64,000 nt of DNA from Sorangium aterium. Its GTDB lineage: Bacteria > Myxococcota_A > Polyangia > Polyangiales > Polyangiaceae. Positions 50,864 through 56,941 of the stretch are shown here, piece by piece. The notes below the pieces were generated by a model. It was not told where the DNA came from. It did no database searches and worked only from the letters and a program-made list of their open reading frames with translations. Each line of letters opens with the position of its first letter. Position 1 is the first letter of the stretch. The position numbers and the translations under genes were made by a program. The stretch spans positions 992,001 to 1,056,000 of the forward strand of contig NZ_JAQNDK010000003.1 of the NCBI RefSeq assembly GCF_028368935.1. The letters are read 5' to 3'.

Positions 50864-51613
50864 CTACGCCGGCGACGTCGCGACGCCCGCGCCGCGGTGG
50901 ATCAGCCCGGGATCGTGGCCGAGCGCCCCTGCGATCGCCGCCCTCACGTCCCGCATCAACCGGTTGCGGCCCCCGGCGCCATAGGGTGCCGGATCGATCG
51001 GCGGCATGATCGTGACAACCACCCGGTGGTGCTCCTGGACCACGAAATTCTTCGCCCGGAGCACGTGCCGCGTGCCGTCGATCGCCACCGGGAGGATGGG
51101 CGTGTTGGTCTCGATCGCCATCCGGAACCCGCCGCTCTTGAACGGGAGGAGCGCGCCGGTCTTGCTCCGCGTCCCCTCCGGCGCGATCCAGACCCGGGTC
51201 CCGTCCTGCAGCATCGACGCGCCGACCTGCAGGCTCGCGCTGGCCTGGACGTGATTGCTCCGGTTGATCCGGATGAACCCGGCCGCCTTCATCGCCTGGC
51301 CGAAGATCGGCACGTTGAACAGCTCTTTCTTGGCGATCATCCGGAGCCGCCCGGGGATCGCGCGGAACACCACCGGGATGTCGAAGAGGCTCTGGTGGTT
51401 CGACATCACAACGAACGGCCGCGCGCCCGAGGCGTTCTCGCGCCCGCGCACCACCAGATCCACGTCCGCGTCCTCGAGCACCTTGCGCGCCCACCAGTCC
51501 AGCCGCTCATCGCAGCGCTCGAGGGTCACACGCCCGATCATCGCGTCCACCACGGTCGGAAAGCAGATCCGGGCAGTGTCGAAGATTCCCATGAACGTCG
51601 TCTGAAGGCTCAT
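50864..51613 (-). CDS. plsC: 1-acyl-sn-glycerol-3-phosphate acyltransferase
   Basis: 249-residue PlsC-family acyltransferase. Motif I NHQSLFD is the catalytic NHxxxxD; IAPEGTRSKTG is the EGTR phosphate-binding motif, and a hydrophobic N-terminal stretch plus VPIFGQAMKAAGFIRINR support membrane association and the family. It acylates lysophosphatidic acid to phosphatidic acid in phospholipid synthesis. ATG at 51613. No partner genes are visible; convergent with the SGNH gene. The length fits the family. Confidence 0.92.
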   Translation of the reverse strand: MSLQTTFMGIFDTARICFPTVVDAMIGRVTLERCDERLDWWARKVLEDADVDLVVRGRENASGARPFVVMSNHQSLFDIPVVFRAIPGRLRMIAKKELFNVPIFGQAMKAAGFIRINRSNHVQASASLQVGASMLQDGTRVWIAPEGTRSKTGALLPFKSGGFRMAIETNTPILPVAIDGTRHVLRAKNFVVQEHHRVVVTIMPPIDPAPYGAGGRNRLMRDVRAAIAGALGHDPGLIHRGAGVATSPA

Positions 51614-51790: not shown

Positions 51791-52222
51791 TCAACCCCCG
51801 GCTGTGGTGCCGGTCACGGTCACTACCACGCGGCGCCCGTGGGGAGAACTACGGTGCTCCCAGACATACAGGGCTTGCCAGGTCCCGAGCGCGAGGCGGC
51901 CGCCGGAGATCGGGATCACCTCGCTCGAGCGGGTGACGGCGCTCCTCAGGTGGCCCGGCATGTCGTCGGGGCCCTCGTCGTCGTGCTCGTAGTCGCGGCC
52001 CTCCGGGGCCAGGCGCGACATCCAGCGCTCCAGGTCGCGGAGGACGGCCGGATCCGCGTTTTCCTGGATGATGAGGCTCGCCGACGTGTGCTGCAGGAAC
52101 ACGGCGCAGAGCCCGACGTCGACGCCCGCGCCGGCGACGACGCGCGCGACCTCGCGCGTGATATCGACGAAACCCCGGCCGTTCGTGCGGATCTCGAGCG
52201 TGCGCTGGACGATGGTGGTCAC
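51791..52222 (-). CDS. YjbQ (UPF0047) family protein
   Basis: 143 residues starting with GTG at 52222. The family core VGLCAVFLQHTSASLIIQENADPAVLRDLERWMSRLAPE and a conserved YEHDDEGPDDMPGHLRSAV are complete, followed by ISGGRLALGTWQALYVWEHR. Metal-binding histidine in QHTSAS is kept. Some members complement thiamine-phosphate synthase loss, but the physiological role is not settled. It lies 9 bp downstream of bufC in the same direction and may be co-transcribed with it. Confidence 0.92.
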   Translation of the reverse strand: MTTIVQRTLEIRTNGRGFVDITREVARVVAGAGVDVGLCAVFLQHTSASLIIQENADPAVLRDLERWMSRLAPEGRDYEHDDEGPDDMPGHLRSAVTRSSEVIPISGGRLALGTWQALYVWEHRSSPHGRRVVVTVTGTTAGG

Positions 52223-52231
52223 CGCGCCATC

Positions 52232-53131
52232 TTAGCCGCCTTCAGCGCGCGCGCCCGGCACGACGTCGACGATGAGCCCCCAGCTCGTCCAGCGCTGGAA
52301 CCACGCGCCCACGCGCTCGGCCAGCGCCGCGCCCGCCCCCTCTCCGGCGCCCTCTTCCTCGGTGCCGGCCGGCTCCCGAGCTCTGCTCGCCACCTCCTCA
52401 CACGCCGGGACGAGCGGCACGCCCCGCCCGAGCGCCTCGAGGAGCGCGAACGCCTGAGGATCGAGCTCCTCGAAGCGGATCGTGAGGTCGGCGCCGCGGA
52501 ACACGGCGAGGTGGACCGGGCGGGGCGCGGGCAGCGCGGGCGACAGGCCTTGCTTGAGCTCGCTCCGGAGGACGTGCGCCGGGTGGCCGAGCCGCACCAG
52601 CGCGAGCAGCGGGTGCAGGACGATCCTGGCGGTGGACCAGCCGTCCGCCGGCATGTCCGTCACCTTCGCCGGATCGAGCGGAGGGGGCGAGGCGCCGTCG
52701 AACAGATCGACGAGGGTGTGCTCGTACCGCGCCACGTCGCGCGCGAGATCCCGCAGGGCAGGGGGGAACCCGTCGTGGGCGCCCGCGAAACCGGCGACGT
52801 CTCGCCCGAGGTCGCGCAGCGTGAAGCTCGCGGGCGGGTGCGCCGCGAGGTAGGCCCGCGCGAACGCGTCGAAGCCGTCGTCGCCGAGGACGTGCGCCAG
52901 CGCGGGGTAGTCCTCGCGGAGCGCGTCCCTGTGCCGCAGCCAGAACTGCCGCCGGTAGATGTCGGCCTGCTCGGCGGGCGCGAGCCGCTCGCTCCCGGCG
53001 ACGTGCTCGCGGCACAGGCCGGCGAGCACGGCGTCGTCCGCGAGCGGCGCGCCGGCCGTGAACATGCGGGTGAGCTGCCGCATCAGGGCGGCGAGGCCGG
53101 CCGGGGGCGCGGGGTCAGGCGGCGCGCGCAC
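52232..53131 (-). CDS. bufC: BufC-type bufferin maturation partner (DUF2063)
   Basis: 299 residues. The N-terminal DUF2063 domain includes ADIYRRQFWLRHRDALREDYPALAHVLGDDGFDAFARAYLAAHPPASFTLRDLG-type sequence, with the conserved Y-R-x-x-F and DYP elements, and FPPALRDLARDVARYE. The C-terminal part contains LHPLLALVRLGHPAH and a W-rich end. DUF2063 proteins partner DUF692 enzymes to install thiooxazole or oxazolone groups on Cys in RiPP metallophores. The start overlaps the bufB 3' end by 17 bp, so it is translationally coupled. Confidence 0.88.
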   Translation of the reverse strand: MRAPPDPAPPAGLAALMRQLTRMFTAGAPLADDAVLAGLCREHVAGSERLAPAEQADIYRRQFWLRHRDALREDYPALAHVLGDDGFDAFARAYLAAHPPASFTLRDLGRDVAGFAGAHDGFPPALRDLARDVARYEHTLVDLFDGASPPPLDPAKVTDMPADGWSTARIVLHPLLALVRLGHPAHVLRSELKQGLSPALPAPRPVHLAVFRGADLTIRFEELDPQAFALLEALGRGVPLVPACEEVASRAREPAGTEEEGAGEGAGAALAERVGAWFQRWTSWGLIVDVVPGARAEGG

Positions 53132-53972
53132 GCGCCACCTCCTCGCGGATCGCCCGCGCCTTCTCCGCCTCGGCGGCGAGGACCTCGAACGAGGGGATGT
53201 CGTCGTCCCACTCGATCAGCGTCGAGACGTCGCCGGCGCGGGCGACCGCGCGCCGGTAGAGCGCCCACACGGCGTCGACCACGTGATCGCTGTGGGTGTC
53301 GAGGATGTACGCGCCCTGGTGCGTGTGGCCGGCGAGGTGGAACTGCACGATCCGGTGGTGCGGCACGCCGTCGATGTAGGCCTCCGGATCGAAGCCGTGG
53401 TTGTACGAGGAGACGTAGACGTTGTTGACGTCGAGCAGGATGCCGCAGTCGGCCTCCTCCGCGACCGCCGAGAGGAACTCCCACTCGCTCATCCGGCTCG
53501 CCGTGAAGGTCAGGTAGCTCGACACGTTCTCGAGCGCGAGCCGGACCTCGAGGAAGTCCTGCACCACCCGCGCCCGCGCCGCGACGTGCCGCACGGCCTC
53601 GTCGGTGTACGGCAACGGGAGCAGATCGTGCAGGTTGATCCCGTGCGCGCCCGTCCAGCACAGGTGATCGCTCACCCAGGGCGAGCCCACCCTGGCCAGC
53701 AGCGCCTTCAGCCGGCGCAGGTAGTCGAAATCGAGCGGATCCGTGCTGCCGATCGACAGCGAGACGCCGTGCTGGACGAGGCGGTAGCTCGAGAGGAAGC
53801 GCTCGAGGTTGGCGATCGGCATGCCGCCGTCCACCATGAAGTTCTCGCTGATGATCTCGAACCAGTCGACCCGGGGCTGGTGCTCGAAGATGTGGCGGTA
53901 GTGCGGGATGCGCAGCCCGACGCCGACGCCGAGGTCGGGGAGTCCCAGCCGCATCCGTTCGAGGTTCACCAT
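53115..53972 (-). CDS. bufB: BufB/MbnB-like multinuclear iron enzyme (DUF692)
   Basis: 285-residue TIM-barrel-like DUF692 enzyme. Family motifs: VGVGLRIPHYRHIFEH, VDWFEIISENFM, HGVSLSIGSTDPLD, SDHLCWTG, LENVSSYLTF, DVNNVYVSSYNHG and QFHLAGHTHQG, with the His/Asp/Glu residues that bind the iron cluster in MbnB and BufB. Such enzymes use oxygen to modify cysteines of a precursor peptide. It sits between the Cys-rich precursor gene (171 bp upstream) and bufC (overlapping). ATG at 53972. Confidence 0.93.
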   Translation of the reverse strand: MVNLERMRLGLPDLGVGVGLRIPHYRHIFEHQPRVDWFEIISENFMVDGGMPIANLERFLSSYRLVQHGVSLSIGSTDPLDFDYLRRLKALLARVGSPWVSDHLCWTGAHGINLHDLLPLPYTDEAVRHVAARARVVQDFLEVRLALENVSSYLTFTASRMSEWEFLSAVAEEADCGILLDVNNVYVSSYNHGFDPEAYIDGVPHHRIVQFHLAGHTHQGAYILDTHSDHVVDAVWALYRRAVARAGDVSTLIEWDDDIPSFEVLAAEAEKARAIREEVARARAA

Positions 53973-54091
53973 GGTTCACCGCGAGCCTGGATCAGGGGTG
54001 GAGGGATGCGCCGCGGCGCCTCACGGCCCAGCGGATCCGCACAGCTCGGCCCAAGGGCCCTGGCGGATCCGTGCAGATCGGCCCGACGGGT

Positions 54092-54117
54092 CCGGCGGAT
54101 CCGCGTGGATCCGCCGG
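54092..54117. promoter_or_regulatory. Perfect hairpin between bufA and bufB
   Basis: CCGGCGGATCC (54092-54102), loop GCGT, GGATCCGCCGG (54107-54117): an 11-bp perfect stem in the transcript. It lies about 27 bp after the precursor stop and 120 bp before the bufB start. Suited to stabilise or attenuate transcript so that precursor exceeds enzymes; this is inference. Confidence 0.5.
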
Positions 54118-54143
54118 ATTCCGCCGGGCCGGGCGCGCCGAAC

Positions 54144-54431
54144 CTACGACGAGCAGTCGGCCGGCTTGCAGCCGCCCTTGCCCTTGCACTCGTTCTTGCC
54201 CGAGCACTCGTGGCCGGCGCCCTTGCAGCCGCCCTTGCCCTTGCACTCGTTCTTGCCGGCACAGCACTCCTTGGCGGCGGCCGCAGGCGCCTCGGTCGCC
54301 GCCGGCTCGGCCGCGGGGGCGGCGCCGCCCGTCTCAGGCGCGGGCGGAGGCGACGAGGCGCAGCCCGCGAGGCCCGCCACCATGCCCGACACCGCCGTCA
54401 ACGCCAACGTCTTGCCCATGTCGATCGTCAT
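54144..54431 (-). CDS. bufA2: Bufferin-type RiPP metallophore precursor (BufA2-like)
   Basis: 95 residues. Signal peptide MTIDMGKTLALTAVSGMVAGLAG, with Cys24 in a position that could also be a lipobox. An Ala/Pro/Thr/Glu spacer runs to about residue 53. The core is Cys-rich: Cys at 56, 57, 63, 69, 76, 82, 88 and 93, with two exact GKNECKGKGGCK repeats (59-70 and 78-89). NxCKGxGxC is the motif I associate with BufA2-type precursors. A GGAGG lies 6 bp before the ATG. bufB and bufC follow. Expected role: copper or other metal binding in the periplasm after Cys modification and export. Confidence 0.85.
   Translation of the reverse strand: MTIDMGKTLALTAVSGMVAGLAGCASSPPPAPETGGAAPAAEPAATEAPAAAAKECCAGKNECKGKGGCKGAGHECSGKNECKGKGGCKPADCSS
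54165..54257 (-). repeat. Exact 36-bp direct repeat in the bufA core
   Basis: Two identical 36-bp copies (54165-54200 and 54222-54257), 57 bp apart, encode the duplicated GKNECKGKGGCK metal-binding unit. Zero synonymous differences indicate a recent duplication or gene conversion. Confidence 0.85.
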
Positions 54432-54639: not shown

Positions 54640-55857
54640 TTGACCTCCACGCCCACGCGAGCCCCCCCTGCGTGCACGGCGTCCGGCGGCGTAGCCTCGG
54701 TGGCTGGGGCGCGCGGCCAGCGTGCAGCGTTCCATGCACGACGTAACTCGCTTCGGACGGGAGGCGCAAGACAAAGCGTCCAGCGCGGCGCGCCGGCGCC
54801 GTGGCGGGTCCTCGTCCACCCGCGTCGCGGGGCGCTCCCGGTGCTCGCGGCGCTCTCGCTGGGGGCGGCCGGCTGCGGGGGGGGCCCGAGTGGAGGGGCT
54901 CCACGTGGGGGGGCCGGCACGCCGGGCAGCGCGGCGGGTGATGCGGCCTCCGGGCGCGAGCTCCCTGTCGAGGCGATCGCCGCCGAGCTCGAGGCGCTGA
55001 GCGGCGCGATCCTCGAAGGGCGGGAAGCGACGTTCCGGGACATCCTGGCCGACGCGCTCGCGAAGGACGCGTACCTGTGCCAGCCGGCGCCGCGCCGCGT
55101 CTTTTCCGGAGCGCGCGGCGACGTGCCGGAGGGGGAGCGGCGGATCGCCGGGGTGATGCCGCACTACGGCCTCTTCTTCGGTCCGATGAGCTACCTCGTG
55201 CGGCGGCGCGGCGGCGCCTGGGAGGTCGGCGTGCGCATCGCGGTCGACCCGCCGGAGGGCGCGGGCTGGCTCGAGCTGCCCGACTGCGGGCTGGCCGCCC
55301 GGCTCGGGGGCGCCATCGCGTGCCGCGGTACGCCGTACGCGCGCTCGGGATCGACGGACGCTTGCCCGGGGTCCGGCGTGTTCACGGCGAGGGCGACGCC
55401 GGCCGCGATCCGCGCCCTGCTCGCGCGCTGGTCGGACGAGGCCGAGGGGTACTGGAACCGCGACGCGCGCGCCTTCGGGCTGCCGGTGCGCTACGACTTC
55501 GACTTCGTTCTCGCGGACGAGGCGCGCGCGCGGGCGCTCCGGGTCGATCTCGCGGTGCCGCTCTCGCCGACGTGCGGCAGGACGCCGTACTTCAGCGCGA
55601 TGCGGGCCGGCTGGTCGCTGCCCGTGCTGGCCCACGAGGTGGGGCACGTGCTCGGGCTGCTCGACGAGTACGAGGCGCTCTCCGGGATCGTCCGCTGCTA
55701 TCCGAAGACGCCGTTCCCGGGCGCCGAGATCAGCCGGATGGGGCTGTCGATGAAGGAGGAGACGCGGCTCCTGCCGATCCATCACTACCTCGTGCTCCGC
55801 CGCTTCTTCTGCCGCGAGCCCGCGTCCATCGACCCGTATGCCGGCGCGATCCGCTGA
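54640..55857 (+). CDS. Metzincin-like zinc metalloprotease lipoprotein
   Basis: Up to 405 residues, but the start is uncertain: only TTG/GTG starts (54640, 54700) exist before the lipobox region ALPVLAALSLGAAGC. The C-terminal part has AHEVGHVLGLLDEYEAL, an extended HExxHxxGxxDE metzincin-type zinc site, followed by a Met-turn-like segment (ISRMGLSMKEET). Preceding segments (YWNRDARAFGLPVRYDFDFVL, SPTCGRTPYF) may form the substrate cleft. Cysteines in CQPAPRR, DCGLAA and CRGTPY probably pair. It overlaps the next gene's first ATG by 20 bp through a 24-bp tandem repeat. Likely secreted or surface-anchored. Confidence 0.75.
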   Translation: MTSTPTRAPPACTASGGVASVAGARGQRAAFHARRNSLRTGGARQSVQRGAPAPWRVLVHPRRGALPVLAALSLGAAGCGGGPSGGAPRGGAGTPGSAAGDAASGRELPVEAIAAELEALSGAILEGREATFRDILADALAKDAYLCQPAPRRVFSGARGDVPEGERRIAGVMPHYGLFFGPMSYLVRRRGGAWEVGVRIAVDPPEGAGWLELPDCGLAARLGGAIACRGTPYARSGSTDACPGSGVFTARATPAAIRALLARWSDEAEGYWNRDARAFGLPVRYDFDFVLADEARARALRVDLAVPLSPTCGRTPYFSAMRAGWSLPVLAHEVGHVLGLLDEYEALSGIVRCYPKTPFPGAEISRMGLSMKEETRLLPIHHYLVLRRFFCREPASIDPYAGAIR

Positions 55858-55933
55858 CCTGATGCCAGCGCGATCCGCTGACCCGATGCCGGCGCGATCC
55901 GCTGACCTGATGCCGGCGCGATCCGCCGAGCGC
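55838..55933 (+). repeat. 24-bp tandem repeat carrying four ATG codons
   Basis: Four units (55838, 55862, 55886, 55910), the last diverging at its end. In the downstream frame each encodes MPARSAD-plus-one residue; in the upstream frame the first unit contains the protease stop codon (55855-55857). Its repeats therefore multiply the gene junction, giving four in-frame start codons. Confidence 0.85.
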
Positions 55934-56941
55934 CCCACGTGCCCCCGCGCCGGCCGCCGCCTCGCGGTAGCGGCGCTCGCCTACGTCAGCGCAGCGGCGC
56001 TCGCGTGGACGGGGCTCGCGGGCTGCCGCTCGGAGCGAGAGCGCGGCGGGGCGGACGCGGGGCCGAGCGCGGCGGACACGGGAGCCAGCGCGGCGGACAC
56101 CGGGGCCGGGGCGCCGGACGTGGCGCCGCCGCTCGTGGGGGCGCCTCCGAGGCCGAGGCCGATTGCGCCGCCGGCGGAGCCGCGCTGTCCGCCGGAGATG
56201 GTGCGGGTCGCACGCCGGTTCTGCGTCGATCGCTACGAGGCGGTGCTGCTCGACAAGGAGACCGGGCTCGAGATCTCCGCGTTCTATCCTCCGTCGCGCC
56301 AGGCGGCCGCGTCCGTCGAGCGGGTGTGGTCGAAGATGCGGCTGCAGCTCGGGGACGACGAGGCGCGCCGCATGGATCTGCCGCTGCTGCCCGGCTGGCA
56401 GAAGCAGCGCGAGTTCGAGCCGCGCGCGGTGTCGCGCAGGGGCGTGCTCCCGCAGGGCTACACGACCGGCGCGCAGGCGGAGCTCGCGTGCCGGAACGCG
56501 GGCAAGCGGCTCTGCTCGCTCGAGGAGTGGCGGACGGCGTGCCGCGGCGAGCGGGACGAGCAGTTCCCGTACGGACCGACCTACGCGGACGGGCGGTGCA
56601 ACGTGTTCCGCGAGGCTCACCCGGCCGGCGTGCTCCACCGCGACGTGACGCTCGGGCACAGCGATCCGCGGCTCAACCTGGTGCGCGTCGCCGGGGCGCC
56701 GCTCCTGCGGCGGACGGGCGAGACCGCGACGTGCGCGAGCGCGTGGGAGGACGACGCGGTCGCCGACATGGTCGGCAACCTCGACGAGTGGATCGACGAT
56801 CCGGAGGGGACGTTCGTCGGCGGGTTCTACGCGCGCGCGACCCGGGAGGGGTGCATGGCGCGCGTCGCGTCGCACGACTTCACCTATTTCGACTACTCGA
56901 CCGGCGTCCGCTGCTGCGCGGATCTCCGCGCGCCGCCGTGA
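55910..56941 (+). CDS. FGE-sulfatase-like (formylglycine-generating enzyme fold) lipoprotein
   Basis: About 343 residues from ATG 55910; three earlier in-frame ATGs add 24 residues of tandem MPARSADx. The signal (RRLAVAALAYVSAAALAWTGLAGC) ends at a lipobox. The body has FGE-type signatures: MVRVARRFCVDRYEA, GKRLCSLEEWRTACRG, FPYG, ADMVGNLDEW, GGFYARATREGC and STGVRCC. The active cysteine pair of true FGEs cannot be confirmed; many bacterial FGE-fold proteins are not sulfatase modifiers. Linked to the protease gene by overlap, so possibly co-expressed. The start choice rests on signal-peptide length. Confidence 0.8.
   Translation: MPARSAERPTCPRAGRRLAVAALAYVSAAALAWTGLAGCRSERERGGADAGPSAADTGASAADTGAGAPDVAPPLVGAPPRPRPIAPPAEPRCPPEMVRVARRFCVDRYEAVLLDKETGLEISAFYPPSRQAAASVERVWSKMRLQLGDDEARRMDLPLLPGWQKQREFEPRAVSRRGVLPQGYTTGAQAELACRNAGKRLCSLEEWRTACRGERDEQFPYGPTYADGRCNVFREAHPAGVLHRDVTLGHSDPRLNLVRVAGAPLLRRTGETATCASAWEDDAVADMVGNLDEWIDDPEGTFVGGFYARATREGCMARVASHDFTYFDYSTGVRCCADLRAPP

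Follow-up and report, generated by a model that had tools for sequence, protein, structure and literature searches.

The 64,000-nucleotide stretch of DNA analysed here (hereafter the window; contig NZ_JAQNDK010000003.1, positions 992,001 to 1,056,000) comes from the 13.47-Mb genome of Sorangium aterium, genus Sorangium, family Polyangiaceae. It contains the three-gene operon bufA-bufB-bufC, which we consider likely to be a Buf2-like bufferin/captophorin operon of the Cys-Lys group, acting by the steps of modification, export and metal buffering proposed below. Open reading frames and domain matches confirm a Cys-rich precursor gene, a DUF692 gene and a DUF2063 gene in this order, at the coordinates given by an original prediction made from the DNA sequence alone; all three prove to lie on the minus strand (Table 1). 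That prediction had read the set as a bufferin-type operon of precursor, MNIO (multi-iron oxidase) and DUF2063 partner in a myxobacterium, and this holds up: BufB and BufC exceed curated family cut-offs, the fold predicted for BufC resembles TglI and 3DEE, and the bufABC order is kept. The eight-Cys core of the precursor, with its Cys-Cys start and a Cys in its tail, is a conserved trait of the lineage.

Products of the bufABC operon

In BufA, an Ala/Pro linker separates the lipobox (LAG-C) from the eight-Cys core ECCAGKNECKGKGGCKGAGHECSGKNECKGKGGCKPADCSS. In keeping with the prediction, it contains two NECKGKGGCK units and eight Cys beyond the lipobox Cys; the mature lipoprotein would hold nine Cys if processed at the lipobox. 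The export signal is recognised at the level of pattern, as a lipobox matched by a regular expression plus a hydrophobic stretch. Four of the eight core Cys directly precede Lys and are the likely modification sites; the second Cys of the Cys-Cys pair precedes Ala and the tail Cys precedes Ser, neither of them being followed by Lys. In an 11-row alignment of the precursors of relatives, the Cys through the fifth motif position do not vary, nor do Gly and Asn positions, and the last two Cys are almost invariant. Since genomes of the same genus and family encode such alignable, conserved precursors, BufA is more than a chance open reading frame. BufA gave no Pfam match at E ≤ 0.001, DUF2282 included, and the precursor profile matched none of the PDB sequences. 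With eight core Cys, against the 6 or 12 conserved Cys described for Buf2, the arrangement differs from that of characterised bufferins, as had been suspected, and it is kept within the lineage. By score and by Cys number the precursor is not a standard Buf2. It is lipoprotein-like and aligns with the BufA2 model, rather than belonging to an unrelated Cys-rich lipoprotein family, and its sequence marks it as clearly a relative of Buf2, probably working like Buf2.

BufB exceeds the cut-off of the NCBIfam bufferin-maturase model NF050167 (362 vs 310 bits), matches PF05114 (3e-111), and retrieves by sequence the solved MNIO structures 3BWW (3e-55), TglH (8hci, 1.9e-22) and MbnB (3.6e-11). Alignments show H68, H103, E148, D181, H212, D225, H227 and E254 to be common to all three, and we take these residues to be the metal sites. 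D256 is shared with 3BWW and MbnB and not with TglH; an Asp at this position is described as the catalytic base in the consulted parts of PMC13097082, which also give an Asp beside the catalytic Asp as typical of Cys-Lys MNIOs. In BufB, Asp257, adjoining Asp256 in the sequence IEWDDDIP, is an Asp at the site of FonB-Phe250.

BufC matches PF09836 (DUF2063; 2.3e-16) and PF22106 (NGO1945_C; 4.3e-7), both over their cut-offs, and scores 45.9 bits against the NCBIfam HvfC model, below the cut-off of 142. Its structure model has a mean predicted local distance difference test score (pLDDT) of 92.4, and its only PDB matches under 0.001 are TglI in 8hi7 (E 3.6e-7) and 8hci (4.9e-7), and 3dee (1.1e-5). 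The sequence alone found no match among PDB sequences, and a profile found RNase H only (7.6e-4), which we took as a chance match. On domain matches and the model, BufC is predicted to be a DUF2063 partner with a RiPP recognition element-like part (PME type 1), RiPP denoting ribosomally synthesised and post-translationally modified peptides.

For systems of this kind, 5-thiooxazole formation with the loss of four hydrogens per Cys, export and copper binding have been described (PMC12452194, PMC13097082, PMC12668002, PMC12636315; here and below, papers are cited for the parts consulted). In the mechanism we propose, the cytoplasmic steps would be the presentation of BufA to BufB by BufC and the conversion by BufB of some core Cys, most likely the four Cys-Lys ones, into 5-thiooxazoles. 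After export through Sec, the modified peptide would receive a lipid on its lipobox Cys and stay attached to the envelope, buffering copper or some other thiophilic metal there. Of the extra Cys, one belongs to the N-terminal Cys-Cys and one to the tail; these two would most likely form a separate outer pair, acting either as a Buf1-like disulphide clamp or as a second set of metal ligands, and a hairpin between bufA and bufB would probably raise precursor over enzyme. The modification sites, lipidation, metal, disulphide and role of the hairpin in this operon are what we infer from these comparisons. As regards the metal, the same operon might instead yield a product that mainly buffers a metal other than copper (e.g., zinc, mercury, cadmium or silver) or oxidative stress, with the extra Cys forming a thiolate site. 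Two extra thiols apart from the Cys-Lys sites would suit such a role, and PMC12452194 describes MerC fusions and proposes functions not limited to copper; however, products of the Cys-Lys captophorin class generally bind Cu (PMC13097082) and no feature observed at the locus suggests a different metal. We regard a mainly non-copper function as unlikely, though worth keeping in view.

The eight-Cys core and its probable maturases in Polyangiaceae

We refer to cores with a Cys-Cys start as CC-type, the eight-Cys form having the spacing C0C5C5CxC5C5CyC. Across a draw of 377 genomes of the phylum, a BufA2-like match at E ≤ 0.001 is present in 103 and a match over the cut-off in 43. A profile built from 11 precursors of Polyangiaceae finds matches at E ≤ 0.001 in 72 of 108 genomes of the family and in 5 of 6 of the genus (the window's own included), counts that are partly by construction because the profile derives from family members; named records that match it are from Sorangium, Minicystis, Byssovorax, Labilithrix and ‘Polyangiaceae bacterium’. 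Surrounding stretches were examined for many, not all, of the matching loci. The 85 family loci, with repeats, reduce to 73 distinct cores (no core was parsed in L250 and L257, of which L250 is CC-type in a looser census). These comprise 48 CC-type cores with eight Cys, 10 CC-type cores with seven, two longer CC-type cores (16 and 18 Cys) and 13 non-CC cores, namely 10 symmetrical six-Cys cores, two with 12 Cys and one with eight. The tail Cys is present in 58/58 single-domain CC cores and in 0/10 symmetrical six-Cys cores of the family. Tail-Cys calls at L231 and L238 were false pattern matches in six-Cys cores, and a stricter spacing rule was used for this final census. The looser census, of 71 distinct cores (58 of them CC), found a permissive lipobox pattern in 57 of the 58 CC cores and a BufB within the examined stretch for 37.

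The seven-Cys form bears on the role of the extra Cys. With the gap placed by reading, it has lost the ‘GGC’ of the last unit and kept the Cys near the end. Both ends of the core thus persist in a form that has lost a motif Cys, as would be expected of a separate outer pair. If instead the two extra Cys were also modified, up to eight thiooxazoles might bind more metal ions and there would be no structural disulphide. This would accord with the suggestion of several metal ions in the sequence-only prediction and with the many Cys that Buf_EGKCG precursors can hold (PMC12452194); the Ala and Ser that follow the two Cys in place of Lys, and the seven-Cys form, argue against it, and we think it improbable. 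A fuller version of the outer-pair reading is a membrane-anchored two-part bufferin of Polyangiaceae, in which Cys-Lys thiooxazole copper sites would be combined with an outer Cys pair serving as a redox-switchable clamp or a different metal site, coupling metal load to redox state, and dosed by a hairpin general to Buf2-like operons; we offer this as a tentative and, taken whole, rather unlikely proposal.

For the distribution outside the family we surveyed named loci, taking the best 80 of 383 matches. Of these, 23 are CC-type, 20 in Myxococcota records and three from one ‘uncultured delta proteobacterium’ bin; since pooling the named and family sets leaves the distinct CC cores at 60, all 23 repeat cores of the window's family. 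Among the same best 80, the CC-type is found in 0/44 loci titled Acidobacteriota (27), Verrucomicrobiota (10) or Planctomycetota (7), of which 42 were parsed as distinct and two were repeats or unparsed, and in 0/6 titled Pseudomonadota. Five of these six repeat cores of genomes placed in the window's own phylum; one is titled Klebsiella pneumoniae. CC-type cores elsewhere should have been favoured by this search because the query is itself CC-type. BufA aligns with six-Cys relatives whose genes adjoin bufB and bufC in records of four phyla (Acidobacteriota, Verrucomicrobiota, Planctomycetota and Myxococcota). In another family of Myxococcota, two precursors (L101, L102) carry two other extra Cys, both C-terminal; there too, the extra Cys are two in number.

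A BufB tree of 139 rows, built by a quick method with support from the Shimodaira-Hasegawa-like approximate likelihood ratio test only, separates the BufB enzymes encoded with CC-type precursors from those encoded with six-Cys precursors of the same family. The 37 CC-type rows need five changes on the tree, against a mean of 33.0 in shuffled labels (0/500 as low), and four rows labelled ‘none’ (L136, L223, L225, L256), which break the CC group, proved on reading to be CC-type. The CC rows fall into a cluster of 29 eight-Cys systems and another of eight seven-Cys systems, which are not joined in the drawn tree. The eight-Cys cluster adjoins one of acidobacterial, verrucomicrobial and planctomycete six-Cys systems, and seven six-Cys systems of the window's own family sit in a different, starred cluster; support is modest (83-90), and the CC type may have arisen once or twice.

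Several observations weigh against the reading of the operon as a Cys-Lys bufferin system. BufA scores 29.8 bits (E 5e-7) against the BufA2 model NF050166, half of the curated cut-off of 60. The AlphaFold model of mature BufA is uninformative (pLDDT 54, predicted template modelling score 0.22), too poor for any Cys pairing to be read from it. No known copper gene or regulator was found among the four neighbour proteins scanned with NCBIfam and Pfam. The Asp at the Cys-Lys site of BufB, present in 32/37 CC-type rows, is a weak marker because it is common in classic Buf2 enzymes (18/32) too, less frequent in symmetrical six-Cys enzymes (29/46) than in the CC-type and rare in twelve-Cys ones (3/16). 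No more than one or two evolutionary events may lie behind the linkage of the Cys-Cys and the tail Cys. Finally, 21/58 CC-type precursors lack a BufB in the examined stretch (e.g., L051, L052, L053, L056, L126 and L127), and some of them may therefore function without modification or be modified in trans. The latter is possible in three of the genomes concerned (G102, G115, G249), where another CC-type locus does have a BufB (L136, L247 and L218, respectively).

These BufB-less precursors, together with the low BufA2 score, also lend something to the possibility that BufA is an unmodified metallothionein-like lipoprotein, with bufB and bufC acting on another substrate and the gene order ancestral. 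Against this, bufA lies directly ahead of bufBC in all five genus genomes where it was found, and BufB type tracks precursor type within the family; we rate this as the least probable of the alternatives weighed here. The Cys-Lys bufferin reading remains the one we prefer.

The predicted bufA-bufB hairpin, neighbouring genes and other loci

The RNA of the bufA-bufB gap folds at -109.1 kcal/mol (z -4.53; 0/200 shuffles as stable). When the window's own genome was searched with 104 bases of this gap, the matches were the query, the inverted half of its own sequence and a single partial match of 28 bases; neither a terminator pattern nor an Rfam family was found in the gap. A strong hairpin between the two genes recurs across Buf2-like operons. 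In a recount restricted to distinct cores and gaps of 40-220 nt, with 30 shuffles each and the bufC start estimated from alignment (39 further gaps being outside this range or not placeable), 67/88 bufA-bufB gaps have z ≤ -2, comprising 24/32 CC and 43/56 non-CC gaps, as against 7/88 random stretches of the same loci and 4/46 bufB-bufC gaps. We prefer this recount to a first run, which may count some loci twice through the overlap of the named and family sets (26/32 CC and 47/58 non-CC gaps; random stretches 5/64 and 6/116; bufB-bufC 5/49). The signal is uneven among Sorangium loci, with z of -4.90 for the window, -3.71 for L122, -1.51 for L113, -0.79 for L115 and -0.21 for L120. A T-rich stretch follows a stem in 29/88 gaps, the window's not being one of them. 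By analogy with other RiPP operons, such hairpins would be expected to leave more message for the precursor than for the enzyme. As a regulatory feature, the bufA-bufB hairpin is simple and open to testing. The words ‘hairpin’, ‘stem-loop’, ‘terminator’ and ‘attenuat’ are absent from the main texts of PMC12452194 and PMC13097082, and a literature search joining MNIO, stem-loop and precursor peptide found nothing.

Table 1. The buf operon and adjoining features, in window coordinates
Feature	Position	Strand	Description
bufA	54431-54144	-	95-aa precursor; ATG start, second in-frame ATG at 54419
bufB	53972-53115	-	285-aa MNIO (DUF692) bufferin maturase
bufC	53131-52232	-	299-aa DUF2063 + NGO1945_C partner protein; first start GTG
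bufA-bufB intercistronic region	53973..54143	-	171 nt; hairpins at ~54131-54079 (23-bp) and ~54071-54032; no T-run
YjbQ/UPF0047 gene	51791..52222	-	9-10 bp behind bufC; TIGR00149 147 bits, over cut-off
PlsC-type acyltransferase gene	50864..51613	-	PF01553; near operon also in L138, L139, L142, L144, L163
FGE/sulfatase-modifying-factor-like gene	55838..56941	+	PF03781 22.6 bits, just below cut-off 23.3

Counted from its first GTG, bufC shares 17 nt with bufB; its true start may lie farther downstream. The yjbQ gene is possibly co-transcribed with bufC. It is syntenic at L138, L139, L142 and L145 (two Sorangium, a Byssovorax and Minicystis), and because these are only 4/23 CC-type loci we rejected YjbQ as a functional partner and treat it as a neighbour. 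The PlsC-type acyltransferase is probably likewise a syntenic neighbour outside the system. The gene resembling formylglycine-generating enzymes (FGE), which diverges from bufA, is near it also in 5/23 CC-type loci (L138, L140, L141, L147, L160); such enzymes are termed cuproenzymes in PMC12452194, and the tie of this gene to the operon is uncertain. A sequence like a promoter of the extracytoplasmic function (ECF) type, GGAACC-N16-CGT, lies upstream of bufA in the window and in 0/57 other rows (these include three non-precursors: L056 on the minus strand, L091 and the first of L106); it occurs in 2.3% of background 300-nt windows (102/4360) and was not used as evidence.

The window's genome has seven MNIO genes (L001-L007), three of them adjoined by a DUF2063 gene; a Legionella genome, which PMC12452194 names as its most extreme case, likewise has seven. 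The wider survey also turned up unusual loci. L088 (9563-8562, minus strand) encodes a candidate large precursor of 333 aa with a lipobox, beside a DUF2063 gene and a BufB-like gene (288 bits, below 310); the protein has EF-hand-like and MopE-like stretches, a bufferin-like stretch CSGNNSCRGM...CRAVNGCEGWSC and a CxxCH haem site, the domains being named by reading. L089 (5505-9188, plus strand) has a lipobox protein ending in HAGCGQGTCG, then an MNIO with DUF2063 and, farther on, two genes named by reading, one for a sigma factor of the ECF type and one for a multi-helix protein similar to NrsF. In L092 (2083-8206, minus strand), an MNIO and its 217-aa partner are accompanied by a glycosyltransferase-like gene and by a radical SAM protein like TIGR03975 (199 bits, under the cut-off of 282); a short open reading frame ahead of the MNIO has two PKPAASAHVCRHDPTP repeats and is a candidate precursor. 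Three long repeat precursors (L083, L084, L201) have 21, 21 and 18 Cys, largely in repeated C-x5-C-x5-C units. A start resembling a twin-arginine translocation (Tat) signal (RRDFNK, RRDFTK, etc.), in some cases followed by a lipobox, is present in 13/179 distinct Buf2-like precursors (L079, L083, L084, L086, L100, L154, L164, L168, L171, L172, L174, L192, L217); two of the 15 matches (L126 and L159, one sequence) were dropped as lying upstream of the gene. Tat export of these precursors would fit modification before export. ‘Tat’ and ‘twin-arginine’ are absent from the main text of PMC12452194.

Relation to known systems

The experimentally studied members named in the literature consulted are from Caulobacter, Fontimonas, Haemophilus, Neisseria and Microbulbifer, all Pseudomonadota. 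Searches for bufferins with Myxococc and for DUF692 with Sorangium, supplementary tables being outside their scope, found no description of the eight-Cys type; further small precursors with 1-18 Cys, which could include it, stand in a supplementary table of PMC12452194. The eight-Cys lipoprotein type provides a natural comparison set within a single bacterial family, where precursors of six, seven and eight Cys come with BufB groups to match; the set could be used to test the sites of Cys modification, the function of the outer pair and the effect of lipid anchoring on metal buffering.

Buf2 (BufA2, Buf_6/12Cys, NF050166) shares with the window's operon the bufABC order, the MNIO and DUF2063 partner and the C-x5-C-x5-C Cys-Lys units, together with an export signal that in the window's precursor is predicted by pattern. 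Buf2 precursors have six Cys in 90% of cases and 12 in the rest, and about 16% are predicted lipoproteins (PMC12452194), whereas the window's precursor has eight, with an extra Cys at both ends, and falls below the BufA2 cut-off; its halves are symmetrical (C5C5C..C5C5C), as against C5C5C..C5C12C in the best rows of the BufA2 model. The captophorins of the Cys-Lys group (PMC13097082) are alike in the MNIO-PME1 pair, the several Cys-Lys motifs and the Asp at the selectivity site of BufB; they differ in that no characterised product of the window's lineage was found, ‘Myxococc’ being absent from the main text of that paper. The RiPP-lipoprotein hybrid lipo-NedABC (PMC12636315) also has an MNIO-modified precursor with a lipobox, and its lipoprotein NedA is by experiment both modified by NedBC and triacylated; NedA, however, is an EGKCG (Lys-Cys) oxazolin from Neisseria, whereas the window's core is of the Cys-Lys kind. 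Finally, the Buf1 (DUF2282) bufferins offer a possible analogy for an outer Cys pair enclosing modified inner Cys, in that their first and last Cys are disulphide-bonded around the modified inner ones (PMC12452194), but they have four conserved Cys only and belong to a domain family that the window's precursor does not match.

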